64,000 bases of DNA from Demequina sp. TMPB413 (GTDB lineage: Bacteria > Actinomycetota > Actinomycetes > Actinomycetales > Demequinaceae): positions 372,001-436,000 of the forward strand of contig NZ_CP096184.1 in assembly GCF_020447105.2 (NCBI RefSeq), given 5' to 3'. Shown here one piece after another: positions 3,586 through 31,842 of this stretch; the first letter of the stretch is position 1; the number at the start of each line of letters is the position of its first letter. The notes under the pieces are model-generated. The model did not search any database, was not told the DNA's origin, and worked only from the letters and a program-made list of their open reading frames with translations. The position numbers and the translations under genes were made by a program.

Positions 3586-6500
3586 GTGCGCTCGAGGATT
3601 GTCGCCCCCGTCGGATTGCTGTCGCTCACCGGAGGGCTGGCGGTGGCGGTTCCCGCCACAGCCGCTCCCGCCTCAGACCTGTTCTTGTCCGAGTACGTCG
3701 AGGGCAGTTCATTCAACAAGGCCGTGGAGATCTACAACGGCACCGGCGCCGACGTTGACCTCGCGCCGTACGTCCTCACGCAATACTCGAATGGCAATAC
3801 CTCTGCGAGCGTCGCTCTCGACTTGACCGGCACCCTGGCAGCTGGGGACGTCTTTGTGGTCGCGCACTCGAGCGCCGACCCGGCAATCCTTGCGCAAGCC
3901 GATCTCACCACCGGAGCGGGCCTGTTCAACGGTGACGACGCCCTAGTGCTGAGCAATGCGGGAACGACCATCGACTCCTTCGGCCAGGTGGGCGTCGATC
4001 CCGGTGCAGAGTGGGTAGGTGGCGGCGCGAATGACACGTTGCGCCGACTCCCGAGCGTCTGTGCGGGTGACGCCGACGAGACGGATGAATTCGACGCCTC
4101 GGTCGAGTGGGAGGCGTTTGCCTCAGACACGTTTGACGGACTCGGAGCCCACACCGCGACGTGCACGGGAGATGGTGGCGATGGCGGTGACGGCGGTGAC
4201 GGTGGCGATGGCGGTGACGGTGGCACCCCGACCGTGACGCCCATCCACGACGTCCAGGGCGCTGGAGCAGCGTCGCCACTGGCCGGTGACGTTGTGACCG
4301 TCCAGGGCGTCGTCGTCGGCGATTACGAGGGTCCGAGCCCCGCCCTGCGAGGCTTCTACCTGCAGCAGGACGACGCGACCGTCGACGGCGACCCTGCCAC
4401 TTCTGAAGGCATCTTCGTCTTCAACTCCACCAATGACGATGTCGATCTTGGTGACGTTGTCGGCGTCACAGGGACGGTGGGCGAGTTCCAGGGCCAGACG
4501 CAAATCAGTTCGGTGACCGAACTCGACGTGCTCGGATCAGGAGCCGCGGTGACGGCTGCGACCGTGACGCTTCCCTTCGCGTCGGCCGACGCTGCCGAGG
4601 CTTACGAGGGCATGCTCGTCACCTTCCCACAAGACTTGTACGTCACCGAGTATTACCAGCAGGGACGTTCTGGCGAGGTCGTCTTGAGTTCTGGCGGACG
4701 GCTCCAGCAGCCGACTGCTGTCGCCGAGCCTGGCGCACCCGCGCAGGCCATTCAGGCGGCGAACAACCTCAACCGCATCACCATTGACGATGCGACCAAC
4801 GCCCAGAACGCCGACCCCGTGTTCGGCGGCGGCGGCAACCCGCTCACCGCGAGCAACCCGCTGCGCGGCGGTGACACCGTGACGGACCTCGTGGGCGTCA
4901 TGACCTACACCTGGGGCGGCTACTCCAGCTCGCCCAACGCGTACCGTGTGCGCCCTGTGGGCGACCTGAGCGACAGCGGGCTGGTGCCAGGGGGCGGCGT
5001 GCCGGTCTTCGCGTCAGCCAACCCGCGGCCCACCGAGCCGGAAGACGTCGGCGGCAGCCTCAAGGTCGCCAGTTTCAACGTGCTCAACTACTTCCTCACG
5101 CTCGACGCCTCCGGCAACCAGTGCGGACCGGTGGGCTTCGAGGATGACTGCCGCGGCGCAGAAACCGCCGAGGAGTTCGAGCGCCAGCGCACCAAGTTGC
5201 TCGAGGCACTCCAGGCGCTCGATGCTGACGTGATTGCGCTCATGGAGATGGAGAACACTCCTGGGGTGGACCCGGCGGCCGACCTCGCGGCAGGCCTCAA
5301 CGCCGCGCAGGGCATCACCGGTTGGGAATCGATCGATACCGGCGTGCTGGGCACCGACGTGATTCGGGTGGGCCTCATCTACCGCGGTGACTTGGTCCGA
5401 CCGGCGGGCGATTTCACCGTGATGGATTCCTCCGTGGACCCGCGTTTTGACGACAGCCGCAATCGGCCTTCGCTCGCCCAGACGTTTGTGCAGATGGACG
5501 GTTCCGAGCACGTCACGCTGGTGGTCAACCACCTCAAGTCGAAGGGCTCGTGCCCTGGGGACGGCTCCGCCAACGACGACGCTGGCGACGGTGCCGCGTG
5601 TTGGAACGAGACCAGGACGCAAGCAGCTGAGGCCCTTGTCGACTGGATCGATGCTGGCAATGCAGGCAATGGCGACCCCGACGTCGTCCTGATGGGAGAC
5701 CTGAACTCCTACGCCATGGAGGACCCCATCCAGGTCTTCGTCGACGCGGGTTACGCGGACCTGAGCCTGGGCGAGTACTCCTACGTGTTCGACGGACAGT
5801 GGGGATACCTCGACTACGCGCTCGCGTCACCTAGCTTGCAGCCGCAGGTCACCGGCGTGACGGAGTTCCACATCAACGCCGACGAGGTGCCGGTGCTCGA
5901 CTACAACACCAACTTCCAGACGCCGGAGCAGATCGCGGCCCTGTACGCGCCAGACATGTACAGGACATCGGACCACGATCCGATCCTGCTGGGGCTCGAC
6001 CTTGACTCCGGCGTGACCTTCGCGGTGACACCGGACGTGGTGGCCGGCGCCGAGCACTCGCTGGTTGATGTCGACGTGACGGCGACCGGTCCCGACAGCG
6101 CGCCGTGGACGGTCGAGATCATCAACGCGTTCTCGACTCAGGCAGACGACGGCATGGCTGCGGGAGACCTGCCAGGTGACGCGAGCATCGTCGACAGCGA
6201 CACTGCCCAGTTCCGCGCCGAGGAGTACGGCGGCGAGGAGCGTCTCTACGTCATGTACGTCGAGGCGGTCGGGCCCAACGGGGAGCGCGTGTTCCGCTCG
6301 CTCGAGGTGCCCGTCGAGGTCGAGCCTGCCGCTGCGCCCACCTGCTCGGTGCAGTCCTGGACCCACCAATGGTGGGGCGGGGGCTTCAAGACCACGGTGG
6401 TGGTGCGCAACCTGACCGACGAGCGGATCAACGGCTGGACGCTCGACTACAGCATGGACGAGCACGCGAAGATCTGGTTCGGTTGGAACGGCAACATGAC

Positions 6501-6660
6501 CAAGACGGGCACCGATGTCTCGGTGGACAACGTGTTCTACAACGCGACCATCTGGCCGGGCTCCGCACGGTCGTTTGGATACCTCGGCACCAGCCGAGGC
6601 GACGCCGAGCCCGTGGGGCCCTTCATGCTCAATGGTCAGCAGTGCGAGGTGATCGGCTAG
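3586..6660 (+). CDS. Secreted multidomain nuclease (lamin-tail, EEP, CBM2)
   Basis: 1,024 residues. In order: signal peptide (1-27, cut near AAPA); lamin-tail domain (~30-190); Gly-Asp linker of GGD repeats (~196-212); an OB-like segment (~215-315) as in ExeM/NucH nucleases; endonuclease/exonuclease/phosphatase domain (~489-805) with KVASFNVLNY, LMEMEN, VNHLKSKG, GDLN (~704) and SDHDP (~795); an Ig-like spacer; and a C-terminal CBM2-type module (~919-1024) with paired cysteines and the Trp pattern WTHQWW, GWTLDY, WFGWNG. The likely role is extracellular DNA degradation, possibly anchored on cellulose or chitin (inference). The GTG start has AAAGGAG 5 nt upstream. Confidence 0.88.
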   Translation: MRSRIVAPVGLLSLTGGLAVAVPATAAPASDLFLSEYVEGSSFNKAVEIYNGTGADVDLAPYVLTQYSNGNTSASVALDLTGTLAAGDVFVVAHSSADPAILAQADLTTGAGLFNGDDALVLSNAGTTIDSFGQVGVDPGAEWVGGGANDTLRRLPSVCAGDADETDEFDASVEWEAFASDTFDGLGAHTATCTGDGGDGGDGGDGGDGGDGGTPTVTPIHDVQGAGAASPLAGDVVTVQGVVVGDYEGPSPALRGFYLQQDDATVDGDPATSEGIFVFNSTNDDVDLGDVVGVTGTVGEFQGQTQISSVTELDVLGSGAAVTAATVTLPFASADAAEAYEGMLVTFPQDLYVTEYYQQGRSGEVVLSSGGRLQQPTAVAEPGAPAQAIQAANNLNRITIDDATNAQNADPVFGGGGNPLTASNPLRGGDTVTDLVGVMTYTWGGYSSSPNAYRVRPVGDLSDSGLVPGGGVPVFASANPRPTEPEDVGGSLKVASFNVLNYFLTLDASGNQCGPVGFEDDCRGAETAEEFERQRTKLLEALQALDADVIALMEMENTPGVDPAADLAAGLNAAQGITGWESIDTGVLGTDVIRVGLIYRGDLVRPAGDFTVMDSSVDPRFDDSRNRPSLAQTFVQMDGSEHVTLVVNHLKSKGSCPGDGSANDDAGDGAACWNETRTQAAEALVDWIDAGNAGNGDPDVVLMGDLNSYAMEDPIQVFVDAGYADLSLGEYSYVFDGQWGYLDYALASPSLQPQVTGVTEFHINADEVPVLDYNTNFQTPEQIAALYAPDMYRTSDHDPILLGLDLDSGVTFAVTPDVVAGAEHSLVDVDVTATGPDSAPWTVEIINAFSTQADDGMAAGDLPGDASIVDSDTAQFRAEEYGGEERLYVMYVEAVGPNGERVFRSLEVPVEVEPAAAPTCSVQSWTHQWWGGGFKTTVVVRNLTDERINGWTLDYSMDEHAKIWFGWNGNMTKTGTDVSVDNVFYNATIWPGSARSFGYLGTSRGDAEPVGPFMLNGQQCEVIG

Positions 6661-9615: not shown

Positions 9616-9652
9616 CTAGTGAGCATACGACGGGAATTGGACGCGAAATGTT

Positions 9653-9694
9653 AGCGTTGTTACCGCCCGAGGGGATATCACCGATAACAGCGCT
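9653..9694. promoter_or_regulatory. Inverted-repeat operator between tetR-type and SDR genes
   Basis: Arms AGCGTTGTTACCG (9653-9665) and CGATAACAGCGCT (9682-9694) match at 11 of 13 positions as inverted repeats, with 16 bp between. The site lies in the divergent gap between the TetR-type gene and the SDR, the usual place for a TetR operator. Confidence 0.5.
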
Positions 9695-9719: not shown

Positions 9720-10463
9720 ATGACGGAGACAAGCCAACAAGGACGCGTGGCCGTGGTCACGGGCGGCTCGCGTGGAATCGGAAGGGCCATTGCGAATCGG
9801 TTGTCCGCAGAGGGGTTCGCCGTGGGGGTGGGATTTGCGTCCCGCAAGGAGGAGGCCGACGCGGTGGTCGCCGCGATTGAGGCGTCAGGAGGCGCCGCAG
9901 CGGCTTTCCAAGTCGACGTTTCTGAAGAGTCGAGCGTCGGCGAGGCGTTCGATGCCGTCGAGGCTAGGTGGGGCGGCCTTGACGTCGTGGTGAACTCAGC
10001 GGGAGTGATGACCAATGCGCCGGTCGTCGCAGGAGACCTTGAGGCGCTCGACCGCATGATCGCCGTGAACCTGCGCGGGGCATTCATCGTCGCCGCCGAG
10101 GCGGCCAGGCGTGTTCGCGAGGGCGGGTCAATCGTGCTGCTCTCCTCCTCTGTGGTGCGCCTTAGGCCGCCCACATACGCTGCGTACGCAGCAACGAAGG
10201 CGGCGGTGGACGTCCTCACCGCGATTGCTGCCAAAGAGCTCGGTCCGCGAGGCGTCACCGTCAACGCGATTGCACCTGGGCCAGTCGAGACCGAGCTCTT
10301 CCACGCAAGCAACACCCCTGAATCGATCGCGATGCTCACGCACATGACGCCGTTGGGACGCATCGGCGTCCCCGACGACGTGGTGGCCGCGGTGTCGCTG
10401 TTGGCTGGCGAGGGGCGTTGGATCACGGGACAGACGCTCCACGTCAATGGGGGCCTCGCCTAG
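9720..10463 (+). CDS. SDR family oxidoreductase, FabG-like
   Basis: 247 residues with a complete classical SDR set: VTGGSRGIGRAI (~14), DVSEE, NSAGVMTN (~92), SSSVV catalytic Ser (~140), YAAYAATKAAV (Tyr/Lys ~154/158), IAPGPVETE and the C-terminal GQTLHVNGG typical of 3-oxoacyl-ACP reductase-type SDRs. NADP use is likely from the GSRGIG loop, but the substrate is unknown. The ATG at 9720 has GGAGG 5 nt upstream. Divergent from the TetR gene, which probably controls it. Confidence 0.9.
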   Translation: MTETSQQGRVAVVTGGSRGIGRAIANRLSAEGFAVGVGFASRKEEADAVVAAIEASGGAAAAFQVDVSEESSVGEAFDAVEARWGGLDVVVNSAGVMTNAPVVAGDLEALDRMIAVNLRGAFIVAAEAARRVREGGSIVLLSSSVVRLRPPTYAAYAATKAAVDVLTAIAAKELGPRGVTVNAIAPGPVETELFHASNTPESIAMLTHMTPLGRIGVPDDVVAAVSLLAGEGRWITGQTLHVNGGLA

Positions 10464-19914: not shown

Positions 19915-19959
19915 TCTGCCGATCGACTTTTCGCGCAGGGAGGACAACCCACCCACAAA

Positions 19960-20099
19960 TGGCTCAATCCGTACCGGATTTCGCCGCTCCACGGCACAAG
20001 TGGCTCGATCCGTACCGGATCTCGGAGCACCATGGTGCAAATGGCTCGATCCGTACCGGATCTCGCGGCGGCGGCCAGCCAGTGGCTTGATTTGTACCG
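19960..20099 (+). repeat. Array of four 17-bp cores, 41-bp period (forward)
   Basis: The core TGGCTCRATCCGTACCG begins at 19960, 20001, 20042 and 20083, exactly 41 bp apart. The last copy is diverged (TGGCTTGATTTGTACCG). The 24-bp spacers differ, although two share GATCTCG starts. With the inverted array at 20154 it fills most of the 572-bp gap between hsp20 and the ABC cassette. Confidence 0.88.
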
Positions 20100-20153
20100 C
20101 GGCCGACGCTGGTGGGTAGAGATTGAGTCGTCGGAGGGGGTGGGCGCCGGGGA

Positions 20154-20293
20154 CGGTACGGATCAAGCCATTTGCGAGGGTTGGGTGCGGAGAGCGGTAC
20201 GGATTGAGCCATTTGCGAGGGTTGGGTGCGGGGAGCGGTACGGATTGAGCCATTTGCGAGGGTTGGGTGCGGGGAGCGGTACGAATTGAGCCA
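20154..20293 (-). repeat. Array of four 17-bp cores, 41-bp period (inverted)
   Basis: The reverse core CGGTACGGATTGAGCCA begins at 20154, 20195, 20236 and 20277, again exactly 41 bp apart. Here the 24-bp spacers are nearly identical (TTTGCGAGGGTTGGGTGCGG plus 4). It faces the forward array and ends 88 bp before the ABC ATPase gene. Confidence 0.88.
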
Positions 20294-20380: not shown

Positions 20381-21301
20381 ATGCCCGCTATTGCCACGCA
20401 AGGCCTCACGAGGGTCTTCGGCCCCGTGACCGCGCTGTCGCAGCTCACCGTCGAGATGCCGTCAGGAGTGGTCGGCCTCGTCGGCGCGAACGGCGCCGGC
20501 AAGTCGACCCTCATCAAGATCCTGTTGGGCTTGCTGCCGCCCACCTCAGGCACGGCCAGTATCCTCGGGATGAACTGCCTCACCGACGGCGTCAAAATCC
20601 GCGAGATCGTCGGCTACATGCCGGAGAGCGAGTGCCTGCCCCCTGATGTCTCCGCAACGGAGTTCATCGTGCACATGGCACGCATGTCGGGACTGCCGAC
20701 GGACGTGGCGCGCGAGCGCACCGCGGACACTCTGCGCCACGTGGGACTTTACGAGGAGCGTTACCGCCCCATCGGCGGCTACTCGACCGGAATGCGCCAG
20801 CGCGTGAAACTAGCCCAGGCGCTCGTGCACGATCCCAAGTTGGTCCTGCTGGACGAGCCCACCAACGGCCTCGACCCCGCCGGTCGCGATGACATGCTCG
20901 GCCTCATCAGACGCATCAGCACCGACTTCGATATCTCAGTGGTGGTCACATCGCACCTGCTCGGCGAGCTGGAACGGATCGCGGACCACATCGTGTCGAT
21001 CGAGGGCGGCGTGCTCCAGCACTCGACCTCCACTGCCGCGGCGACGGAGTTCAGCGGCGTCGTGCTGGTCGAGGTGACCGACAAGGGGCCGGAGGTAGTT
21101 GAGCGGCTCAAGGCTGCAGGCGCCACGGTCACGACGGGCGGCCAGCCCAACAGTTTTGCGGTGGCGATCGACGACGAACGAGTGCTCGATGACGTGCGCG
21201 GTGCCGTCGCCGACCTCGAGGTTGGCTTGATCAGGATGCAGCACGGCCGCCACCACCTCTCAGAGATGTTCGCGACCCAGCAGGAGGCGCTCCATGGCTG
21301 A
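20381..21301 (+). CDS. ABC transporter ATP-binding protein
   Basis: 306 residues. Walker A GANGAGKST (~34-42), a signature region in the form YSTGMRQR (~134), Walker B LVLLDEPTNGLD (~154-165) and the H-loop TSHLLGE. The C-terminal ~80 residues form the extra domain common in exporter ATPases for antibiotics or lipids. First of four overlapping or close genes encoding two ATPases and two ABC-2 permeases. The next start overlaps by 8 nt. Substrate unknown. Confidence 0.9.
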   Translation: MPAIATQGLTRVFGPVTALSQLTVEMPSGVVGLVGANGAGKSTLIKILLGLLPPTSGTASILGMNCLTDGVKIREIVGYMPESECLPPDVSATEFIVHMARMSGLPTDVARERTADTLRHVGLYEERYRPIGGYSTGMRQRVKLAQALVHDPKLVLLDEPTNGLDPAGRDDMLGLIRRISTDFDISVVVTSHLLGELERIADHIVSIEGGVLQHSTSTAAATEFSGVVLVEVTDKGPEVVERLKAAGATVTTGGQPNSFAVAIDDERVLDDVRGAVADLEVGLIRMQHGRHHLSEMFATQQEALHG

Positions 21302-22214
21302 CAACAAGGCGCCACACGCCACCACCGCCGACGCCCAGTCGCAGACAGTCATTCACGACATCGGCTTCCGTCACTACGACGGACCTCGCCTTGGCCGCGG
21401 GTGGATCGTCAGGTCCCTCCTAGTCGAGACATTCAGGGGAGTGTTCGGCTTCGGGCGTCCCGCGAAGGCCAAGATCATGCCGTGGATCCTCGTGGGCATC
21501 ATGCTGGCGCCACCGCTGATCTTCGCGCTCATCGCGGTGCTGCTGGGCCTCGACGAGTTGCCGATGTCCTACACCGCATACCTGCCGCAGATGTCCTTTG
21601 TGGTGTCACTGTTCGTTGCGAGCAGAGCCCCGTACTGCGTCTCGCGCGACTTGCGCCACGGCGTCATGCCGCTGTATCTGTCGCGGCCGATGCGGCGCAA
21701 CGACTACGTCCTGGCGAAGTTTGCTGGCCTTGCGCTGGCCATGTTCGCGGTGCTCGCGGCATCCGAGGTGTTGCTCTTCATCGGCGCCCTGCTGGCCAAA
21801 CTGCCGGTCGGTGCCCAGATCACTGGGTTCTTGCAGGGCCTGGTCGTGGCGATTCTCCTCTCGCTCGTGCTCGCCGCTATCGGCCTGGTGCTCGCCGCGT
21901 TTACTCCGCGCAGGGGACTGGGCGTGGCGGCCATCATCACGGTGCTCGTGGTCATCAGCGGCTTCGCCGCGGTGGTCGCCCTGCTGCTGATCGACAACGG
22001 CAGCGAGACGCTCGGCGCCTACCTGGGAGCGCTCGATCCCTTTGCCCTGGTGGACTCCATCGCCGTCTCCTGGTTCGGAGTGGAGTCGGCGTTTGGGCGA
22101 GAAGTTGACTTGGGAGTCACGGGTGGCTTGGCCTTTACTGCGGCCGCCACCCTGATCGTTGCCGGGGGCATCGGCTTGCTGCTGCGCCGCTACAAGAAGG
22201 TCGGTGTCGCATGA
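21294..22214 (+). CDS. ABC-2 type permease
   Basis: 306 residues with about six membrane segments from ~63 onward, after a soluble start. The segment SRDLRHGVMPLYLSRPMRR between TM2 and TM3 is the usual cytoplasmic coupling element of ABC-2 permeases (bacteriocin or lipid exporters). It overlaps the flanking ATPase genes at both ends (8 nt and 4 nt), so the cassette is translated together. Confidence 0.85.
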   Translation: MADNKAPHATTADAQSQTVIHDIGFRHYDGPRLGRGWIVRSLLVETFRGVFGFGRPAKAKIMPWILVGIMLAPPLIFALIAVLLGLDELPMSYTAYLPQMSFVVSLFVASRAPYCVSRDLRHGVMPLYLSRPMRRNDYVLAKFAGLALAMFAVLAASEVLLFIGALLAKLPVGAQITGFLQGLVVAILLSLVLAAIGLVLAAFTPRRGLGVAAIITVLVVISGFAAVVALLLIDNGSETLGAYLGALDPFALVDSIAVSWFGVESAFGREVDLGVTGGLAFTAAATLIVAGGIGLLLRRYKKVGVA

Positions 22215-23122
22215 GCACGCTCCAGTTGAGCGGGGTGTCGCGGTGGTATGGCGACGTGGTCGCGGTCAACGACGTCACGATGACGGTCGGACCAGGGGTC
22301 ACGGGCCTGCTGGGGCCAAACGGCGCTGGCAAGTCCACCCTGATCTCGATGATGGGAGGCTTCCTGCCGCCCTCGTCTGGCACGGTGACTCTCGACGGCG
22401 AGCCGGTGTGGCGCAACACGGAGGCGTACCGCTCGATCGGTCTTGTTCCGGAGACCGAGGCCATGTACGACATGGTGACCGGCTGGGAGTTTGTGCTCGC
22501 CAACGCGCGCCTGCACGGCCTGGCCGACCCTGTCGGCGCCGCACGCGCCGCCGTGGAGCAAGTCGACATGGTTGACGCGAAGGATCGCGACATCTCCGGC
22601 TACTCCAAGGGCATGAAGCAGCGCATCAAGATGGCGACCGCGCTGGTTCACGACCCCAAGGTGTTGTTGCTTGACGAGCCCTTCAACGGCATGGATCCTC
22701 GCCAGCGCCTGCACTTGATGGAGTTGCTGCAGTCACTCGCGGCCGACGGCCGCACGGTGCTGTTCAGCAGTCACATTCTTGAAGAGGTCGAGCAGATCGC
22801 CGGGACCATCGAAGTGGTGGTGGCCGGCAGGCACGCGGCGTCAGGAGACTTCCGGCGCATCCGCAAGCTCATGACACAGCGTCCCCACCAATACACGATC
22901 CGATCGAGCAACGATCGGGCCCTTGCCGCCGCGATCATCGCCGACGGTTCTGCCGACAGTGTCGATGTCTCGTCTGGCTCGCTCGCGGTGCAGGCATCCG
23001 ACTTTGGCCGTTTTGTTCAGGCGCTCCCCAAGCTGGCTCGCGATGGGGACGTGCGCTTGCTCGAAGTGACGCCTGCCGACGAGTCGCTCGAGAGCGTCTT
23101 CGCGTACCTGGTAGCGCGATGA
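22211..23122 (+). CDS. ABC transporter ATP-binding protein
   Basis: 303 residues. Walker A GPNGAGKST (~35), signature YSKGMKQRIK (~132), Walker B VLLLDEPFNGMDP (~151) and H-loop SSHILEEVE. It is a distant paralogue of the first ATPase in the cassette, so the exporter may use a mixed ATPase pair, or the four genes may be two transporters. Start overlaps the preceding permease stop (ATGA). Confidence 0.9.
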   Translation: MSTLQLSGVSRWYGDVVAVNDVTMTVGPGVTGLLGPNGAGKSTLISMMGGFLPPSSGTVTLDGEPVWRNTEAYRSIGLVPETEAMYDMVTGWEFVLANARLHGLADPVGAARAAVEQVDMVDAKDRDISGYSKGMKQRIKMATALVHDPKVLLLDEPFNGMDPRQRLHLMELLQSLAADGRTVLFSSHILEEVEQIAGTIEVVVAGRHAASGDFRRIRKLMTQRPHQYTIRSSNDRALAAAIIADGSADSVDVSSGSLAVQASDFGRFVQALPKLARDGDVRLLEVTPADESLESVFAYLVAR

Positions 23123-23147
23123 CCGCGCACGGAATGGGGCTATCACG

Positions 23148-23879
23148 ATGAACGTCACCGTCATGCAACTCACTGCCCGCGGCCTCCTTGGCCGGCGCAG
23201 GGCGCTGCTGCTGATCATTCTGCCGCTGCTGTTGCTGGGCCTCGCGGGGCTCACGCGCTGGGCGTCTGAGGCCTCGCCGGAGGCCTCCAGCGTCTTGGCC
23301 AACAACTTCTCGATGGGCACGCTGCTTCCGCTGATGTGTCTGCTTGTCGCCACGGGAGTGATCGGCGCCGAAATCGACGATGGATCGATCGTGTACATGC
23401 TGGCCAAGCCGCTCAAGCGCAGGGTGATCCTGTTCTCGAAGTTGGCCGTGGGCTTCGCTGCGGTGTTCGTGTTCGCCGTGCTTCCCACCATGGCCGGTGT
23501 GGCAATTGCGGGGGACGAGGGCGGTCAACTCTCGGTCGCCTATGGGCTTTCCGCGACGCTCGCCGCGATCGCCTACACCGCCATCTTTGTGACTCTTGGC
23601 GTCATCACGCGCAATGCGGTGGTCTTCGGACTGCTGTATGCCCTGCTGTGGGAGACCGTACTGGGCGGATACGTACCCGGCATTAGGGCAGTGAGCGTGC
23701 GACAGTGGGCGCTGTCCGTGGGGGAGCGGCTGTTGGGCTCGCGCCAGGCCGACGAGTGGAGTTTCGCCGCTGAGGTGGGCATGACCACGGGTCTCATCAT
23801 GCTGACCCTCACCACTGCTGGCGCCATCTACTTGGGCGTGCGCAAGCTCAGGACCCTCACCCTCAACTCGGTCGAATAG
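23148..23879 (+). CDS. ABC-2 type permease
   Basis: 243 residues, about six membrane segments. The motif GAEIDDGSIVYMLAKPLKRR (~71-90) parallels the coupling loop of the other permease. It ends the ABC cassette; 28 bp later the 42-bp repeat array begins. ATG 23148 lies 25 bp after the ATPase stop. Confidence 0.85.
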   Translation: MNVTVMQLTARGLLGRRRALLLIILPLLLLGLAGLTRWASEASPEASSVLANNFSMGTLLPLMCLLVATGVIGAEIDDGSIVYMLAKPLKRRVILFSKLAVGFAAVFVFAVLPTMAGVAIAGDEGGQLSVAYGLSATLAAIAYTAIFVTLGVITRNAVVFGLLYALLWETVLGGYVPGIRAVSVRQWALSVGERLLGSRQADEWSFAAEVGMTTGLIMLTLTTAGAIYLGVRKLRTLTLNSVE

Positions 23880-23907
23880 CTCCCCGGCGCCGCATCCCAC
23901 CCGGTAG

Positions 23908-24008
23908 TGGCTTGATTCGTAACGCTACCCGCGGCGTGTCGCCCGCTGGTGGCTTGATTCGTACCGCGAGAGGCGGCGCACCACGCGGTGGTGGCCTGAT
24001 TCGTACCG
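23908..24008 (+). repeat. Array of three 17-bp cores, 42-bp period
   Basis: Cores TGGCTTGATTCGTAACG (23908), TGGCTTGATTCGTACCG (23950) and TGGCCTGATTCGTACCG (23992), exactly 42 bp apart, with different 25-bp spacers. Same core family as the arrays at 19960-20293; together they bracket the ABC cassette. Confidence 0.85.
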
Positions 24009-24043
24009 CGAGCCGCAGCGGAAGTTCGTTCGCAGTTGGGACG

Positions 24044-24113
24044 CCTTCTGCCTCACCTTTTGGCAGCACTCGGGAATACCGGCGCGCCCGGCGAGGTTGA
24101 GGCTGGCAGAAGG
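24044..24113. other. Long inverted repeat before the DsbA-like gene
   Basis: 9-bp arms CCTTCTGCC (24044-24052) and GGCAGAAGG (24105-24113). It may act as a terminator for the ABC cassette or as a leader structure. Confidence 0.35.
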
Positions 24114-24170: not shown

Positions 24171-24815
24171 GTGATTTCCGTCGACGTCTGGTCGGACGTG
24201 GCCTGCCCGTGGTGCTACCTGGGTAAGCACCGGCTAGAGAAGGCGATTGAAGCGTCGGGCGCCGAGGTGACGGTCACGTGGCACAGCTTCCAGCTCGATC
24301 CCACGATTCCGCACGGCGAACACACTCCGCACGCCGAGGCGCTTGGCAAGAAGTTCAACGCTCCGCCGGAACAGATCGCACAGATGAATCAGCGGCTTGT
24401 CGACCTCGGCGCCGCGGAAGGACTCGAGTACCGCTTCGATCTGTACATCCAGGCGAATACGCGAGACGCCCACCGCGTCATTCACTTTGCGCAGGAGCGC
24501 GGGCTCGGCAACCAGATGAAGGACCGCCTCATGAAGGCGCAGTTCACCGAGGGGGCCATCGTGGACGACGCCGACGTCCTGGTTGGGCTCGCTGCCGAGG
24601 TGGGCCTCGACGCCGACGAGGTACGCGCCATGCTCGCGACCGAGCAGTACGACGACGCTGTCCAGGCTGACATAGCCGAGGCCGCGGCTCTCGGTGCGAC
24701 AGGGGTGCCCTTCTTCGTGTTTGACCGTGCCTTCGCCGTCTCAGGTGCGCAGCCTGTCGCGACTTTTGAAGAGGCGCTACGCCGGTCGAGCGAGAAGCGC
24801 GCAAGCGTCGGCTAG
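24171..24815 (+). CDS. DsbA family protein, FrnE-like
   Basis: 214 residues, thioredoxin fold with helical insertion. The redox motif CPWC lies at ~12-15 (SDVACPWCYLGK), and the cis-Pro loop is GVPFFVFD (~182). FrnE-like proteins act in cytoplasmic disulfide handling and oxidative stress. No signal peptide. GTG 24171 has GAGGAG upstream. It is convergent with the heliorhodopsin gene, 40 bp apart. Confidence 0.88.
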   Translation: MISVDVWSDVACPWCYLGKHRLEKAIEASGAEVTVTWHSFQLDPTIPHGEHTPHAEALGKKFNAPPEQIAQMNQRLVDLGAAEGLEYRFDLYIQANTRDAHRVIHFAQERGLGNQMKDRLMKAQFTEGAIVDDADVLVGLAAEVGLDADEVRAMLATEQYDDAVQADIAEAAALGATGVPFFVFDRAFAVSGAQPVATFEEALRRSSEKRASVG

Positions 24816-24855: not shown

Positions 24856-25614
24856 CTACGAGGCGAGTGCTCCCGAGAACACCTGCCACGCGAGCGCGGT
24901 CTTGGCGACCAAACTGAGGACGATGTAGGTCCGCTCGCCGCGCAGGTAGTTGGACCACTTGCCCTTGGCGCGGTACTGCAACCACTGCACCACGGCGAAG
25001 CAGTTGAAGAACACGAACAGCGAGACGATGATGCCCCACACGAAGCCGGGCACCGTCACGTCGCTCGTGTTGCCGGGCGCGATGAGGTTGAGAGCGATGA
25101 GAATCCACGGCACGCTCCCGACCATCGAGCCGAAAATGAAGGGCAGAAGATCGCCGTCGCCTGGCGTGGTGTAGCGCTCCTGGAGCCAGCCAAACAGGAT
25201 CATGGCGGCGTTGACGGTGAAGAGTCCGGCGAGCGCAGTGACATTCGCGATGCCGTTGAGTTGCAGGATCAGCACGATCATGATGGACGACGACATCGAG
25301 TACTCGACCCACCTGAACGTATTGCGGTTCTCACGCAGCCCCGCGGTGTAGCGAGGAAATACCCAAGGCGAAATGATCAAGAAGTGGAAGAACGCTGACA
25401 GCAAGAGGAAGCCAGCCACCGCGTACGCAATGTTGATGGAGAACAGCGTGACGGGCTCGCCGAAGGCGTCAGAGCCAGGCGGACCGTTGAGGTAGGTCGC
25501 ACGCACCGGTAGCGAAGCGTCGTTCGCGAGCACGAGGATCCCCACAAACGAGGCGAGGTGCAAGAGGCCGGCGATCAGGTTGAACGGTCGAAGCTTCGCA
25601 AGTGCGGTGTCCAT
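24856..25614 (-). CDS. Heliorhodopsin
   Basis: 252 residues, the usual length of this retinal-binding family, with seven predicted membrane helices. Family features: TYLNGPPG (~40-47), FRWVEYS with the Schiff-base counterion E104, FGWLQERYT (~141), GDGDLLPF (~152), KGKWSNYLRGER (~217-228) and Schiff-base lysine K238 in SLVAKTALAW. The pocket histidines H19 and H77 are present. Heliorhodopsins have the N-terminus inside and do not appear to pump ions in most studies; the role is unsettled. ATG 25614 was chosen because GAGGAA precedes it and the family starts here. No retinal-synthesis gene lies nearby. Confidence 0.95.
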   Translation of the reverse strand: MDTALAKLRPFNLIAGLLHLASFVGILVLANDASLPVRATYLNGPPGSDAFGEPVTLFSINIAYAVAGFLLLSAFFHFLIISPWVFPRYTAGLRENRNTFRWVEYSMSSSIMIVLILQLNGIANVTALAGLFTVNAAMILFGWLQERYTTPGDGDLLPFIFGSMVGSVPWILIALNLIAPGNTSDVTVPGFVWGIIVSLFVFFNCFAVVQWLQYRAKGKWSNYLRGERTYIVLSLVAKTALAWQVFSGALAS

Positions 25615-25861
25615 GGTGTTCCTCGTCGTTGAGTGGCGAACAGGCCTACGTGCTGGTCCAACACGGCCCGTGCCTGCGCTGTTCCCGATGCCGGTGCTTC
25701 CTGCGTGGCACTCGCACCCCCCCACACACGTTCGCGCGATCACTTAGGCGTCAGTTAAGTAGTCGTCACCGAGTAAATGTCCCCACTTCTTTGTGTTGAC
25801 GCTCGAGAGGCACGCAAGCGTTGGCGTTGGGCGGCCTTGAGTCAGATGATGGGGTGGATGA

Positions 25862-26018: not shown

Positions 26019-26459
26019 TCATCGCAAAAGCCGTGACCGACTTCTATCATCGTGTCCCGACGGAGCCCATGGCGTCGGCCGGGTCAACCAGGACACAGCA
26101 ACGACTGCCAGCGCTAGGCCGTAACTGCCCACGACAGCGACAGGGTGCAGCGCGTGGACGGTCTGCGTCCAATAGGCATCACCATCTGCGTCGCGCCAGG
26201 TGCAGTCCACGCGGCCGAGCAGGGGCCTGGCATCGGCGGCGATATCCCCAGATGCCTCCTCGGTGAGCTTCCCGTCGAGGGCTGCGGCATCTGGACCCTC
26301 CGCGAAGAAGTCGCATGCCAGTGGTACATAGCCATCCGCCGCCGCGATCGTGAGCGCCGTGAAGCCCGTGGGCACCAGCGCCAGGAGCCCCGCGGCTGCA
26401 ATAGTGACCAGTGCTCGCTTGAGGCTCAGCCCCGTCGCCCCGTTGATTCTCTTCACCAC
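26019..26459 (-). CDS. Membrane protein of unknown function
   Basis: 146 residues from the GTG at 26459, which has the strong site GGAGGGGGAA just upstream. Two hydrophobic helices (~15-37 and ~108-128) flank an extracytoplasmic loop with two cysteines (LACDFF and VDCTW), possibly a disulfide. An alternative GTG at 26507 overlaps the upstream stop (GTGA) and would add 16 residues. No family recognised. Confidence 0.55.
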   Translation of the reverse strand: MVKRINGATGLSLKRALVTIAAAGLLALVPTGFTALTIAAADGYVPLACDFFAEGPDAAALDGKLTEEASGDIAADARPLLGRVDCTWRDADGDAYWTQTVHALHPVAVVGSYGLALAVVAVSWLTRPTPWAPSGHDDRSRSRLLR

Positions 26460-26503
26460 TTCCCCCTCCGGCGTCAACCACAACTCTACAAAAAGCGGGG
26501 CAT

Positions 26504-26791
26504 TCACGCCCCCGGCTCGACCCCAAACTCTCGGTCGAGAACGCTCCGCCAATCGGCGTCGGCGAGGCCCGTCCGATCAAGCAGGTCGCGCCAGTCCACC
26601 ACGGCGTGTTCGAGCGCGTCCTCAAAGAGCGATCGATTGCCGCGTGCCGCGATCACCACGCCCGCGTGAATGCGCTCGGGATCCACGTCCGGCGTCACCT
26701 TCAGCCGCTCCAGTGTGCTGAGCATCGAGGGCGCGCTGGGGCCAAAGTCGGCGGCGAGGCGTTCGGCGACGCGGTTGCTTGGCACAGGCAT
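26504..26791 (-). CDS. Small soluble protein of unknown function
   Basis: 95 residues, mostly helical and acidic, with a C-terminal VDWRDLLDRTGLADADWRSV pattern that looks like a repeated DWR-x2-L motif. No family recognised. First gene of a co-directional group of small genes ending upstream of the heliorhodopsin gene. Divergent from the phosphorylase gene, 56 bp apart. Confidence 0.6.
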   Translation of the reverse strand: MPVPSNRVAERLAADFGPSAPSMLSTLERLKVTPDVDPERIHAGVVIAARGNRSLFEDALEHAVVDWRDLLDRTGLADADWRSVLDREFGVEPGA

Positions 26792-28017: not shown

Positions 28018-28788
28018 ATGAAGGACACTCCCGAAGTCGCACGGACTATCCGCTCAGTCGACGACCTCCTCTCCCTCCTAGACGGCTTGTTCGACCGGGA
28101 CGCGGATCGCTGGTCTGCCGAGTCAGGGTCGGCCTGGTGGGACGCCTTCTACGTGGGCCGAAGCAAGCCCATCCCGTTCTTTGTTGACAAGCCGGACGAA
28201 AACCTCGTCGCCCTGCTCGATCACCGCGAAGTGGCGCCCGGGCGGGCGCTTGACCTGGGTTCAGGGCCTGGTCGAAACGCCCTGTTCTTGGCCGAGCGAG
28301 GTTTCAGCGTCGAGGCGATCGACCTCTCACCAGAGGCGGTGGCGTGGGGTCGCGAACGAGCACAGGCGCGCGGCCTTGATGTCCGCTTCACGTGCGGCGA
28401 CGCGTTCACGCTCCCTGCAGACACCCTGGCCGGCCCGTACGACCTCATCTACGACTCAGGCTGCCTGCACCACCTCGCTCCCCATCGACGCATCGGCTAC
28501 CTAGCGCTGCTCGAGCGCGCCCTCGCGCCCGGTGGGCTTTTCGGCCTCGTGTGCTTTGCGCGCGGCCAGATGGGAAGCGAGCTTCCCGATGCGCAGTTGT
28601 ATCGCGCTGGACGGTTTGAGGCGGGTATGTCCTTCAGCGACGTGGATTTGAGGTGGATTTTCGCTGACCTCGAGGAGGTCGAGTTGCGCGCCATGGTGGC
28701 CCAAGACGAATTGTCGCCGATGTTTGGACAACCCTTCCTGGCGACGGGGCTCTTCCGGCGACCGTCCTCTAGCAGTCGAGCGCACTGA
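28018..28788 (+). CDS. Class I SAM-dependent methyltransferase
   Basis: 256 residues. Motif I is ALDLGSGPGRNALFLAERG (~76-94); motif II has the acidic EAIDLSPEA (~97), and YDLIYDSGCLHHL (~141) resembles the TehB/thiopurine-methyltransferase-like group, as does the early WDAFYVGRSKPIPFF. Small-molecule or metalloid methylation is possible; substrate unknown. Its 3' end overlaps the 3' end of the convergent thiZ-like gene by 20 bp. Confidence 0.85.
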   Translation: MKDTPEVARTIRSVDDLLSLLDGLFDRDADRWSAESGSAWWDAFYVGRSKPIPFFVDKPDENLVALLDHREVAPGRALDLGSGPGRNALFLAERGFSVEAIDLSPEAVAWGRERAQARGLDVRFTCGDAFTLPADTLAGPYDLIYDSGCLHHLAPHRRIGYLALLERALAPGGLFGLVCFARGQMGSELPDAQLYRAGRFEAGMSFSDVDLRWIFADLEEVELRAMVAQDELSPMFGQPFLATGLFRRPSSSSRAH

Positions 28789-29614
28789 GCAGGGCCGCGC
28801 GGTCGTAGCGATTGCCGCCTTTCGCTCTATGCGCTCGTGCTTCCAGCAGCACCCGCCCGGGCCGGTCAGACAGGACGACGATCCGGTCGGCCAGCATCAT
28901 GGCCTCGTCGATGTCATGGGTCACCAACACGACGCCGGAGCCCGTCACCCCGGCCGCGCTGGCATCGGCCGCTGCGGTGCGCTCAGCGAGGTTCACCGAC
29001 GCCAGCCAAGCATTCATGCGCCGCCTGGTCACGGGGTCGAGTCCGCCAAACGGCTCGTCGAGCAACAACACCGGGCGCTCCGCCAGACACGTGCGCAGGA
29101 GCGCAAGCCGCTGTCTCATGCCACCCGACAGCTCGTGCGGCCAAGCGCGCTCGAAGCCGCCCAGACCGAACTCCTCGAACAACCGCCGCGCCCGCACCGA
29201 AGCCCGGTCGCGCGGCACGCCAGCAGCGATCGCCCCCACCATGGCATTGGACAGCGCCCGACGCCACGGCAGCAGTCCGTCGCGCTGAGGCATCCAGGCC
29301 GTCGCCCGTCGCCCGGCACCGTCGCGCGGCACCTCGATCTCGCCCGACACCTGCGCGCGCTGGTCAAGCAGCCCTCCGAGCGCTCGCAGCAGCGTTGACT
29401 TACCGCAACCTGACGGGCCGAGGATGGCCACAAACTCACCATCCCCGACCTCCAGATCCACGGTGTCGAGGACCGTCACGGCCTCGCCACCCCGCCGTAG
29501 CGCAGGGAACGTGACAGTCAGGCCTCGTACCGTCAAGACGGCGCCGACGCCGGAGGTGGGTCGGGCGTCAGCCCTCGCCATCTCCGTCGCCTTCCCCGTG
29601 ACCGGCGTCGTCAT
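28769..29614 (-). CDS. thiZ: HMP/thiamine-precursor ABC transporter ATPase
   Basis: 281 residues. Walker A GPSGCGKST (~66), signature LSGGMRQR (~161), Walker B VLLLDEPFGGLDP (~181) and H-loop VTHDIDEA. Closest in layout to nitrate/taurine/HMP-type ATPases. Last gene of a TPP-riboswitch operon, overlapping the binding-protein stop (ATGA). Energises import of a thiamine precursor, probably hydroxymethylpyrimidine. A longer frame upstream comes from the opposite reading of thiY. Confidence 0.88.
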   Translation of the reverse strand: MTTPVTGKATEMARADARPTSGVGAVLTVRGLTVTFPALRRGGEAVTVLDTVDLEVGDGEFVAILGPSGCGKSTLLRALGGLLDQRAQVSGEIEVPRDGAGRRATAWMPQRDGLLPWRRALSNAMVGAIAAGVPRDRASVRARRLFEEFGLGGFERAWPHELSGGMRQRLALLRTCLAERPVLLLDEPFGGLDPVTRRRMNAWLASVNLAERTAAADASAAGVTGSGVVLVTHDIDEAMMLADRIVVLSDRPGRVLLEARAHRAKGGNRYDRAALLSALDC

Positions 29615-30630
29615 TTCTGGGCGGGAAGGAACTCGTTGGTCCACGCTTCTCCCACGCCAGGGTCGCCGTCGAGCATGCCGCCGTCGGTGAGCCACTGCGA
29701 GAACTGCTCCCACGTCGCCCGTTCCTGCACTCCCCAGGTCTCCGGAGCGTCGGCGTACTGGTCCGCGAGCCACTGCGCGCTCGCGGTGACCAGTGCCTCG
29801 TCTAGCTCTGGCGCGGCCGCCATCAAGGCATCGGCCGCTGCCTGGGGGTCCTCCATTGCGGCGCCGTAGCCGCGGGCCGTGACCTCGACGAACGCGCGCA
29901 CGGTCTCGGGGTGCTCGGCGATCTGGTCGGCCGACGTCGCGATCAGCGGCGTGTACCAGTCCGGGATGCAGTCGAACCAGTCGCGGAAGGCGATGGTCGA
30001 GACGTCCATGGCGTCCACGTCGCTCAGCCGAATGGTGTCCCACGCGTCCATCACCCAGGCGACGTCGAACTGGTCTTGGGTGAGCCCGATGCGGAAGTCG
30101 TCGCTCACCAGCGGCGTGTGTTCCACCAGCGCGGGATCGCCACCGTCGCACGCGACCAGGCTGGAGATGATGGCCTCCTCAAGCGCGGAGCCGTACGAGC
30201 CGTAGCGCTTTCCCTCCAGGTCGCGCGGCCGCGTGATCCCGTCGGACGTGAGCGAGATGAGCGACGAGGTGTTGTGTTCGATCACGGTCGCGAGGGAGAC
30301 GACGTCGGCGCCGGCCGCGCGGGCGGGTAGCAGTCCCTCTGCCACGGAGTATGCGAAGTCGGCCTGGCCTGCGGCGAGCAGCTGAAGGCCCGAGGTCTCT
30401 CCCGGTTCGATCACGGTGACGTCCAAGCCCGCGTCCTCGTACCAACCGTTGGCGAGCGCCAGGTAGAGGCCGGTGTGGTTGGTGTTGGGCGTCCAGTCGA
30501 GCACGACGGTGACGGGGGTGAGGTCGTCAGGCGCGTCGGACGCGTTGTCGGTGGCCTGGGCGCTTGAGCATGCCGCGAGAGAGACGGCAACCACAGTTGT
30601 GAGGGTGGCGAGACGGATGGGGTGAGTCAT
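29611..30630 (-). CDS. thiY: HMP/thiamine-precursor binding lipoprotein
   Basis: 339 residues, NMT1/THI5-like fold. Lipoprotein signal with SLAAC (~17-21). The mature start VVLDWTPNTNHTGLYLA (~42-58) is the hallmark of ThiY-type pyrimidine-precursor binders. It is expected to capture formylamino-HMP or HMP outside the membrane. Between the permease and ATPase genes; the stop overlaps the ATPase start. Confidence 0.9.
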   Translation of the reverse strand: MTHPIRLATLTTVVAVSLAACSSAQATDNASDAPDDLTPVTVVLDWTPNTNHTGLYLALANGWYEDAGLDVTVIEPGETSGLQLLAAGQADFAYSVAEGLLPARAAGADVVSLATVIEHNTSSLISLTSDGITRPRDLEGKRYGSYGSALEEAIISSLVACDGGDPALVEHTPLVSDDFRIGLTQDQFDVAWVMDAWDTIRLSDVDAMDVSTIAFRDWFDCIPDWYTPLIATSADQIAEHPETVRAFVEVTARGYGAAMEDPQAAADALMAAAPELDEALVTASAQWLADQYADAPETWGVQERATWEQFSQWLTDGGMLDGDPGVGEAWTNEFLPAQK

Positions 30631-30639
30631 GAGTTTCTC

Positions 30640-31425
30640 CTAGGTTGAGGTCTGGTGGGTGTGCCACGGCATCGCGAGGCGCCGCAGCAGGGCGATCACG
30701 ACCACCAACACTGCGGTGAGCAGTGCGATGAGCACGATGCCGACAAAGATCTGGTCCACCGCGTAGGCCTTGCGGGAGCGCTGGATGAAGACGCCGATGC
30801 CGGATTCCCCTGCGAGGTATTCGGACACCACCGCTGCGCCCACGGCGTAGGTGGCGGCGATGCGAAGGCCCGCGAGCGCGCCCGGCACCGAGGCGGGCAA
30901 CCGCACCAGCCATAGCTGATGCCTCCGCCCGCCGCCCAAGCCGGCCACGACGTCGGCGTGCTCGGCGTCCACCTCGCGGATGGCCGCCGTCGCGGCCACC
31001 AGCACGGGGAAGAACACCGTCAGCGCGACCAGCACCACCTTGGAGGTGAGCCCGAAGCCCGCCCACAGGATCATGAGCGGCGCGAGCACCACGGTGGGGA
31101 TGGTCTGGCTGAGCAGCACCACCGGGCGGGTGGCGTGGCCGACGCTGGGGACGGCCGACGTGACGATGGCCAGCATCCACCCCAGCGCCGTGCCAAAGGC
31201 CAGGCCCAGCACGGCCTCGGTGGCCGTGGTGGCGACGTGCTGACCCAGGACCGATGACTGCTCGACCGCGGTGGCAACCACCTGAGAGGGACTGGGCAAC
31301 ACGAACTCCGGCAGCTCGCCAAGGTGTACCGAGGCCTCCCATGCTCCGATGAGCACCGCCACGGTGGCGGCGCCGATGAGCGCCGCGCGCCAGCGGTGGC
31401 CGCGCGGTCTGGCGGGACCGGTCAT
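30640..31425 (-). CDS. thiX: HMP/thiamine-precursor ABC transporter permease
   Basis: 261 residues, about six membrane segments, BPD-type permease. The coupling loop contains EVDAEHADVVAGLGGGRRHQ (~148-167), the EAA-equivalent of the nitrate/taurine/HMP group. ATG 31425 overlaps the stop of the preceding thiamine-binding gene. Confidence 0.88.
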   Translation of the reverse strand: MTGPARPRGHRWRAALIGAATVAVLIGAWEASVHLGELPEFVLPSPSQVVATAVEQSSVLGQHVATTATEAVLGLAFGTALGWMLAIVTSAVPSVGHATRPVVLLSQTIPTVVLAPLMILWAGFGLTSKVVLVALTVFFPVLVAATAAIREVDAEHADVVAGLGGGRRHQLWLVRLPASVPGALAGLRIAATYAVGAAVVSEYLAGESGIGVFIQRSRKAYAVDQIFVGIVLIALLTAVLVVVIALLRRLAMPWHTHQTST

Positions 31426-31715
31426 CGGCGGTGTTTGCCCACCAGGTCCTGCACGCTGGGGCCGGCGTCGTCCGCCCCGCCGGAGACCTTGATGACGGAA
31501 AGGCAACCTTCCGCGCCCGCGGCGAGGGTCGCGTCGTGCACCTGACGCAGCAGGGCCCACACGGCGTCGGGCGCGCCCTCGATGGTGGTGCCCATGGCGC
31601 CCACCTCGTAGGAAAGGCCCGACCCGGAGATGACGGCGATGGCGGCGTCCACATGGGCGTAGCGGTCGGTGGCGGTGCCGGTGGGGCGGGGCAGGACTTG
31701 GATCTCGGCGATCAC
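31422..31715 (-). CDS. MTH1187-family thiamine-binding protein
   Basis: 97 residues, Thiamine_BP/DUF77 fold. IAEIQVLPRPTGT at the start and LSYEVGAMGTTIEG (~38-51) are family features; such small proteins bind thiamine and sit with ThiXYZ genes. GTG 31715 is chosen because AAGGAG lies 5 nt upstream. That site can be closed in a stem with GACTCC 17-22 nt upstream, which suggests translational control by the riboswitch. Confidence 0.87.
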   Translation of the reverse strand: MIAEIQVLPRPTGTATDRYAHVDAAIAVISGSGLSYEVGAMGTTIEGAPDAVWALLRQVHDATLAAGAEGCLSVIKVSGGADDAGPSVQDLVGKHRR

Positions 31716-31718
31716 GGT

Positions 31719-31746
31719 GACTCCTTGGCGAAAGGACCGGGGAGTC
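31719..31746 (-). promoter_or_regulatory. Hairpin sequestering the ribosome site of the thiamine operon
   Basis: GACTCC (31746-31741 on the minus strand) pairs with GGAGTC (31724-31719), burying the AAGGAG site of the first operon gene. Probably the expression platform's ribosome-site stem. Confidence 0.5.
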
Positions 31747-31842
31747 AGCACGGTGCACAAGTCAGCCATCGTCGGCACGGGGGGCATGCGCGGGGCAAGA
31801 CCCCAAAGGGCCCGACTCTGCAGACGCCCGTGCCTTCAGACA

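Follow-up and report, generated by a model that had tools for sequence, protein, structure and literature searches.

The window analysed here, a 64,000-nucleotide stretch of the single-contig, 2.92-Mb genome of a Demequina strain, carries a heliorhodopsin gene that converges with a gene for a FrnE/DsbA-like dithiol oxidoreductase and lies downstream of three small co-directional ORFs (Table 1). Sites resembling promoters of the SigR/SigH type precede the heliorhodopsin gene, the FrnE gene and one further gene of the window, and a four-gene ABC-2 exporter operon lies on the far side of FrnE. Two intergenic blocks of tandem repeats of about 41-42 bp, with TGGCT-GATTCGTACCG-like cores, flank the exporter operon (19954-20293 and 23897-24020). 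Elsewhere in the window, 3586-6660 encodes a large protein with lamin-tail, endonuclease/phosphatase and cellulose-binding domains.

Table 1. Features of the heliorhodopsin locus and sites of the SigR/SigH type in the window
Feature	Position	Strand	Remarks
Third SigR/SigH-type site of the window	9632..9659	+	Before the SDR oxidoreductase gene 9747-10463
ABC-2 exporter operon	20381..23879	+	Four genes: ATPase, permease, ATPase, permease
SigR/SigH-type site of the FrnE gene	24072..24099	+	GGGAAT-N18-GTTG
FrnE/DsbA-like dithiol oxidoreductase gene	24171..24815	+	214 aa from GTG 24171; convergent with heliorhodopsin
Heliorhodopsin gene	24856..25614	-	252 aa; ATG at 25614; GAGGAA upstream of start
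SigR/SigH-type promoter-like site of heliorhodopsin	25659..25686	-	GGGAAC-N18-GTTG; ends 44 bp before ATG
Small ORF, 62 aa	25862..26050	-	One TM segment (hydropathy)
162-aa ORF	26019..26507	-	Two TM segments (hydropathy)
95-aa ORF	26504..26791	-	No TM segment (hydropathy); often near the PGI gene

The assignment of the ORF to the heliorhodopsins, made in an earlier note from the DNA letters, was borne out by matches to PF18761 of Pfam (E 9.2e-93; 310.5 bits, with the cut-off at 26.7), to the NCBIfam equivalog NF038020 (320.3 bits against a cut-off of 100) and, in a PDB search, to 48C12, with which 155 of 245 aligned positions (63%) were identical (E about 1e-98). Alignment placed K238, E104, H19 and H77 opposite K241, E107, H23 and H80 of 48C12, confirming the Schiff-base lysine, the counterion and the pocket histidines that the note had named; the long KGKWSNYLRGER loop was present as well. 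Both pocket histidines and the Glu counterion were kept in all 105 aligned heliorhodopsins and the lysine in 104, with a gap in the remaining one, and all four residues were intact in each of the nine Demequina copies. The prediction that the protein should bind retinal is supported at the sequence level.

The source genome was searched for a carotenoid oxygenase, as the note had proposed, and none was found, either with the Blh-type family PF15461, for which there was no positive control, or with the RPE65-type family PF03055, for which there were controls. Across the genus, PF15461 matched none of 44 genomes, the controls likewise giving no match, and PF03055 matched none of the nine genomes with heliorhodopsin and one of the 44 overall, a genome without heliorhodopsin, while matching two of 14 controls. 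Phytoene synthase was present in all 44 genomes. The crt cluster of the source genome encodes a polyprenyl synthase, a phytoene synthase, a CrtI-type desaturase, two small lycopene cyclase-domain proteins and a UbiA-type prenyltransferase, a gene set that we take to be a C50 carotenoid pathway. Endogenous formation of retinal is therefore not favoured. Since neither a Blh-type nor an RPE65-type enzyme was found, holoprotein in the cell is not assured; probably the retinal comes from the surroundings, or else some of the protein is in the apo form.

Heliorhodopsin was encoded in nine of the 44 genus genomes (35 were without it) and in 25 of 396 genomes of an order sample, six of these 25 being the same Demequina. 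From a database scan the best 80 of 508 relatives were kept, most of them acidimicrobial. The tree comprised 105 heliorhodopsins; it left out L090 and the public loci L002, L003 and L006, which represent the same genomes as G001, G027 and G002. Eight Demequina copies formed one supported clade (99/91), whose neighbour was a clade of 58 copies, most of them acidimicrobial or from freshwater actinobacteria, and which stood apart from the sampled order-mates. The ninth copy, from G033, clustered with that of G192, a member of another genus of the same family (100/95; both flagged as long branches). Because the G033 copy groups with G192 and apart from the main Demequina clade, the tree suggests that Demequinaceae have two separate lineages of heliorhodopsin. 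The draft genome G036 (L088, L090) gave two heliorhodopsin matches, the first of full length and the second truncated where its contig stops. Five loci titled Bifidobacterium breve or Ferrithrix thermotolerans (L021, L027, L040, L052 and L081) carried heliorhodopsins that fell among the freshwater acidimicrobial ones in the tree; of these titles, at least those naming Bifidobacterium are probably mistaken.

The site upstream of heliorhodopsin has the elements and the spacing of the Streptomyces coelicolor SigR consensus, GGGAAT(G/C)-16 nt-(C/G)GTTG, as given in the accessible text of PMC3489674, with C instead of T at the sixth base. Aligning the upstream regions of seven main-lineage Demequina orthologues, with the eighth, that of G036, left out for too little upstream DNA, revealed one conserved patch, GGGAA(C/T)-N18-GTT(G/A), which ended 42-49 bp before the start. 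GGAAY-N18-GTT was present in six of the seven and the full GGGAAY-N18-GTTR in five; the site of G001 starts with TGGAAT, and that of G027, GGGAGT-N18-GTTG, differs by one change. The sixth base was T in the heliorhodopsin sites of G016, G002, G012 and G001. Mean pairwise identity among the seven regions was 83% at the -35 element, 88% at the -10 element and 40% in the spacer, and 31% and 32% in the DNA on either side of the site. When spacings of 12 to 24 were compared, 18 was the only one to yield more than one match. We conclude that heliorhodopsin has a candidate promoter of the SigR/SigH type, conserved across the main-lineage Demequina orthologues. Judged by its sequence, the protein is an ordinary heliorhodopsin of the 48C12 type, and what is novel is its putative control by this conserved site.

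The strict pattern occurred three times in the window, against 0.3 times expected from Markov shuffles, and each of the three sites immediately preceded a gene of matching orientation. Over the whole source genome, 23 sites were found, against four for a reversed control pattern. Thirteen of them lay outside predicted genes and had a same-strand gene start within 300 bp; because nine others lay inside predicted genes and one further site had no gene behind it, the pattern alone is no proof of a promoter, and not all 23 sites are promoters. The 13 included the window sites before the SDR, FrnE and heliorhodopsin genes, together with sites before genes for a thiol peroxidase (peroxiredoxin), MsrB (225 bp away), SigE and HtpX (each above its NCBIfam cut-off) and a ClgR-like regulator (below its cut-off). 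The other genes behind such sites encode a ferric-reductase-like protein, an F420-NADP-oxidoreductase-like protein, an OpuAC-type binding protein and two small uncharacterised proteins. A set of genus stretches totalling 594 kb, chosen for their heliorhodopsin, FrnE, ABC-2 or crt genes, held 14 sites, eight of them at FrnE and four at heliorhodopsin, and the reversed control gave none. Control of the carotenoid genes by the same promoter was rejected, the strict site being absent from 14 crt stretches. One of the nine sites inside genes, a SigR-type site within ribD (L169 1501-1528), 74 bp before ribE (riboflavin synthase), may be a chance occurrence or a flavin-supply promoter.

Outside the main Demequina lineage the association was rare. 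Among the best 80 of 508 relatives, GGAA(C/T)-N17-19-GTT preceded none of the 75 non-Demequina heliorhodopsins with enough upstream DNA; the scan, which skipped three of 89 loci with short upstream DNA (L005, L007 and L097), gave eight matches, all in Demequina and corresponding to six genomes, plus one match on the reverse strand. In the order sample, the strict site preceded one of 19 heliorhodopsins, that of G192, and a looser form was present in L153. A general actinobacterial link between SigR and heliorhodopsin was rejected on these counts. The G192 site, GGGAAT-N18-GTTG, lies 37 nt before the start, with AAGGAGG in between. Since this copy belongs to the other heliorhodopsin branch, the link between site and gene may have arisen twice, one case in 19 being thin. 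The upstream DNA of the separate heliorhodopsin of Demequina G033 was without the site.

The facing gene, which the earlier note had described as DsbA/FrnE-like, proved to be of that kind: its product matched PF01323 (E 1.5e-48), its best PDB match was FrnE (5cnw/5cp1; E 9e-51), and it has CPWC at residues 12-15, counted from GTG 24171. ATG 24120 is an alternative start; the query used in the searches, 24174-24815, lacked the first codon of the ORF from the GTG. A crude hydropathy scan gave no TM segment. Among the best 26 of 41 genus matches to FrnE, the strict site preceded 12 homologues, with and without heliorhodopsin nearby, and had T at the sixth base in all 12; ten others had only GGAAY-N17-19-GTT, which in eight of these ten is doubtful, lying 14 bp before the start taken, and four had a site of neither form. 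The strict site was present before FrnE in all four genomes in which heliorhodopsin lies within 1 kb of it. Because 12 of the 26 homologues have the strict site whether or not heliorhodopsin is nearby, FrnE is a candidate core member of the regulon, and since FrnE and heliorhodopsin each have a putative promoter of the same type, we regard the redox neighbour as meaningful for heliorhodopsin. Among genomes with no heliorhodopsin match, G039 has the nearest FrnE relative; the contig of this draft assembly ends about 160 bp past FrnE, and no end of a heliorhodopsin gene was found there. Remnants of heliorhodopsin were sought by tblastn in 12 stretches (L111-L122), of which seven were FrnE loci from genomes lacking heliorhodopsin and the rest ABC-2 loci; the two matches obtained had E over 1 and are put down to chance.

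Comparison of the neighbourhood in related genomes, also proposed in the note, showed that the local gene order varies and that heliorhodopsin has no constant immediate neighbour. Glucose-6-phosphate isomerase (PGI), a PNP-family phosphorylase and/or FrnE were encoded near heliorhodopsin in all eight main-lineage genomes, and the three genes stand together in other species without heliorhodopsin. In G012, heliorhodopsin is preceded by a gene for a DUF347 protein and followed by one for a DUF4328 protein. Genes for an aldo/keto reductase and a MerR regulator are co-directional with heliorhodopsin in G027 and G002 (L095 8301-10454 and L096 8305-10409), lying upstream of it in one genome and downstream in the other. 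An SsuABC/thiamine-type importer with an MTH1187-like thiamine-binding protein, found at 28769-31787 of the window, adjoins heliorhodopsin in G016 and is two genes away from it in G002. The G033 heliorhodopsin sits between a thymidine kinase gene and a GGDEF gene; with an SDR gene, these are co-directional at L091 8224-11596, with gaps of 6 to 22 bp, and form a candidate operon that would tie heliorhodopsin to cyclic-di-GMP.

The reading that we favour, with moderate confidence, is that Demequina has placed an ordinary 48C12-type heliorhodopsin in its thiol-oxidative-stress regulon. Oxidation of protein thiols, for example by photosensitised reactive oxygen, would inactivate a zinc anti-sigma factor and thereby free a sigma factor of the SigR/SigH type. 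The freed factor would transcribe heliorhodopsin from its own promoter and FrnE from a second promoter about 1.6 kb away, as well as the genes for peroxiredoxin, methionine sulfoxide reductase, SigE, the ClgR-like regulator and HtpX elsewhere in the genome. Heliorhodopsin would then insert into the membrane, bind retinal imported from outside and, as a slow light sensor, tune a partner under oxidative stress. The protein with its retinal pocket, the promoter-like site with its conservation and the set of genes sharing that site are established from sequence; the sigma factor that uses the site, induction by stress, uptake of retinal and sensory output are what we infer from them. In the accessible text of PMC3489674, unrestrained SigH in a Corynebacterium glutamicum rshA mutant raised two putative dithiol-disulfide isomerases, MsrA and MsrB, which fits the sites before FrnE and MsrB here. 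Of the 2.92-Mb source genome, 400 kb were read for sigR and rsrA, and neither gene was present there.

If the promoter were read by a different ECF sigma factor, for which the SigE of this genome is a candidate, heliorhodopsin would be part of a regulon for envelope or heat stress and not of the thiol-stress one. A sigE gene is indeed present (NF007229, 280 bits against a cut-off of 265), has an anti-sigma-like neighbour and lies itself behind such a site; the GGGAAC form precedes heliorhodopsin, sigE, the ClgR-like gene, HtpX and MsrB; and SigE-type promoters are close to the SigR/SigH consensus, those of SigE and SigH overlapping. The T at the sixth base of four other Demequina heliorhodopsin sites and of every strict FrnE site, together with the thiol-stress functions of FrnE, MsrB and thiol peroxidase, argues against SigE, and we consider its control of the gene unlikely. 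Alternatively, heliorhodopsin may be a passenger, neutral or in the apo form, that is gained and lost sporadically and whose promoter is a remnant. Its presence in a minority of the genus and the failure to find a retinal-forming enzyme would fit such a history, but the pocket is intact in every Demequina copy, the site is kept in six of seven orthologues, and the gene stays with PGI, PNP or FrnE throughout the main lineage, making a passenger very improbable.

Neighbouring genes offer two further candidates for a functional link. Heliorhodopsin might modulate the ABC-2 exporter by light, like the Ornithinimicrobium heliorhodopsin with OmrDE (PMC11109279). The ABC-2 operon lies within about 6 kb of heliorhodopsin in four of nine genomes, directly divergent from it in G002 and G016, and an ABC-2 permease was found in ten of 44 genus genomes, six of the nine with heliorhodopsin and four of the 35 without (Fisher p 0.002, a value that ignores relatedness), an association that is suggestive. 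Yet ABC-2 is missing from the heliorhodopsin-bearing G001, G027 and G036 (an assembly 85% complete), and in G012 and G033 the two lie far apart; the exporter is of a different ABC type from OmrDE; and in each of the four genomes with linkage the operon and heliorhodopsin are on opposite strands, with FrnE in between in the window and the strict site absent before the operon. Cho et al. (2024) define a group by ABC genes within the heliorhodopsin operon, and here strand and the intervening FrnE gene separate the two. Light control of the exporter thus seems improbable. The three small co-directional ORFs that the note had offered as partners exist, two of them with TM segments, as it had stated; they are near heliorhodopsin, and two of the three stand beside it in G034 too. 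Their distribution speaks against partnership: the 162-aa gene was matched in three of 44 genus genomes, in one of them on a different contig from heliorhodopsin, and the 95-aa gene in 36 (six of nine with heliorhodopsin, 30 of 35 without), so that neither tracks heliorhodopsin as the note had required, and among the heliorhodopsin stretches compared the 62-aa ORF recurred in G034 only. One operon with the small genes is unlikely because a promoter-like site of heliorhodopsin lies in the 247-bp gap after the last of them, separating them from it, and their role as partners is hardly credible.

The proposed membership of heliorhodopsin in the thiol-stress regulon can be extended to a bolder proposal, which we put forward tentatively and regard as doubtful: heliorhodopsin might be the light-sensing arm of the actinobacterial thiol-stress response, recruited at least twice in Demequinaceae from two branches, with its photocycle feeding back on FrnE or on the sigma/anti-sigma switch. 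Much of the other evidence on the role of heliorhodopsins comes from gene neighbourhood, and a conserved stress promoter would tell, independently of neighbours, when the cell wants the protein. Some heliorhodopsins are reported, in the sources available in part, to affect partners, namely glutamine synthetase, photolyase and an ABC transporter. Two type-collection strains, D. activiva NBRC 110675 and D. aestuarii NBRC 106260, have both gene and site, and the candidate promoter makes heliorhodopsin function testable with a thiol oxidant, light and deletion. In the open-access journal literature covered, no link of heliorhodopsin to SigR, SigH, sigma factors or anti-sigma factors was described; matches to sigr or sigh in the accessible text of PMC8612252, PMC8591293 and PMC9601134 came from an author's name or from "sight".

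As a protein, the Demequina copy resembles 48C12 (PDB 6su3, 6uh3 and 9ljj) in overall sequence, pocket histidines, counterion and Schiff-base lysine; the SigR/SigH-type site is a feature of the Demequina copy, the comparison with 48C12 being one of proteins. The heliorhodopsin of Ornithinimicrobium cerasi, as described in the accessible part of PMC11109279, likewise lies near ABC exporter genes, whereas in Demequina the exporter is of another ABC type, shares no operon with heliorhodopsin and is linked to it in fewer than half of the genomes. In the actinobacterium A. photophilum, according to the available text of PMC8591293, darkness raises the transcript of heliorhodopsin along with those of the carotenoid genes; this is another lineage, and the pattern is unlike the stress control proposed for Demequina. 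The actinomycete SigR/SigH regulon has the same consensus, the same spacing and the same dithiol isomerase and MsrB members as the Demequina set, which differs in including heliorhodopsin, a gene not seen in that regulon in the accessible text of PMC3489674. A precedent in function is the work of Bulzu et al. (2021; PMC8612252), who, in the text available, took genes for glutaredoxin, glutathione peroxidase and catalase near heliorhodopsin as a sign that it acts in light-induced oxidative stress and, for the glyoxylase/glutaredoxin case, called the control of transcription unclear. The Demequina heliorhodopsin shares this redox-gene context, with FrnE as the neighbour and with the candidate promoter class identified.
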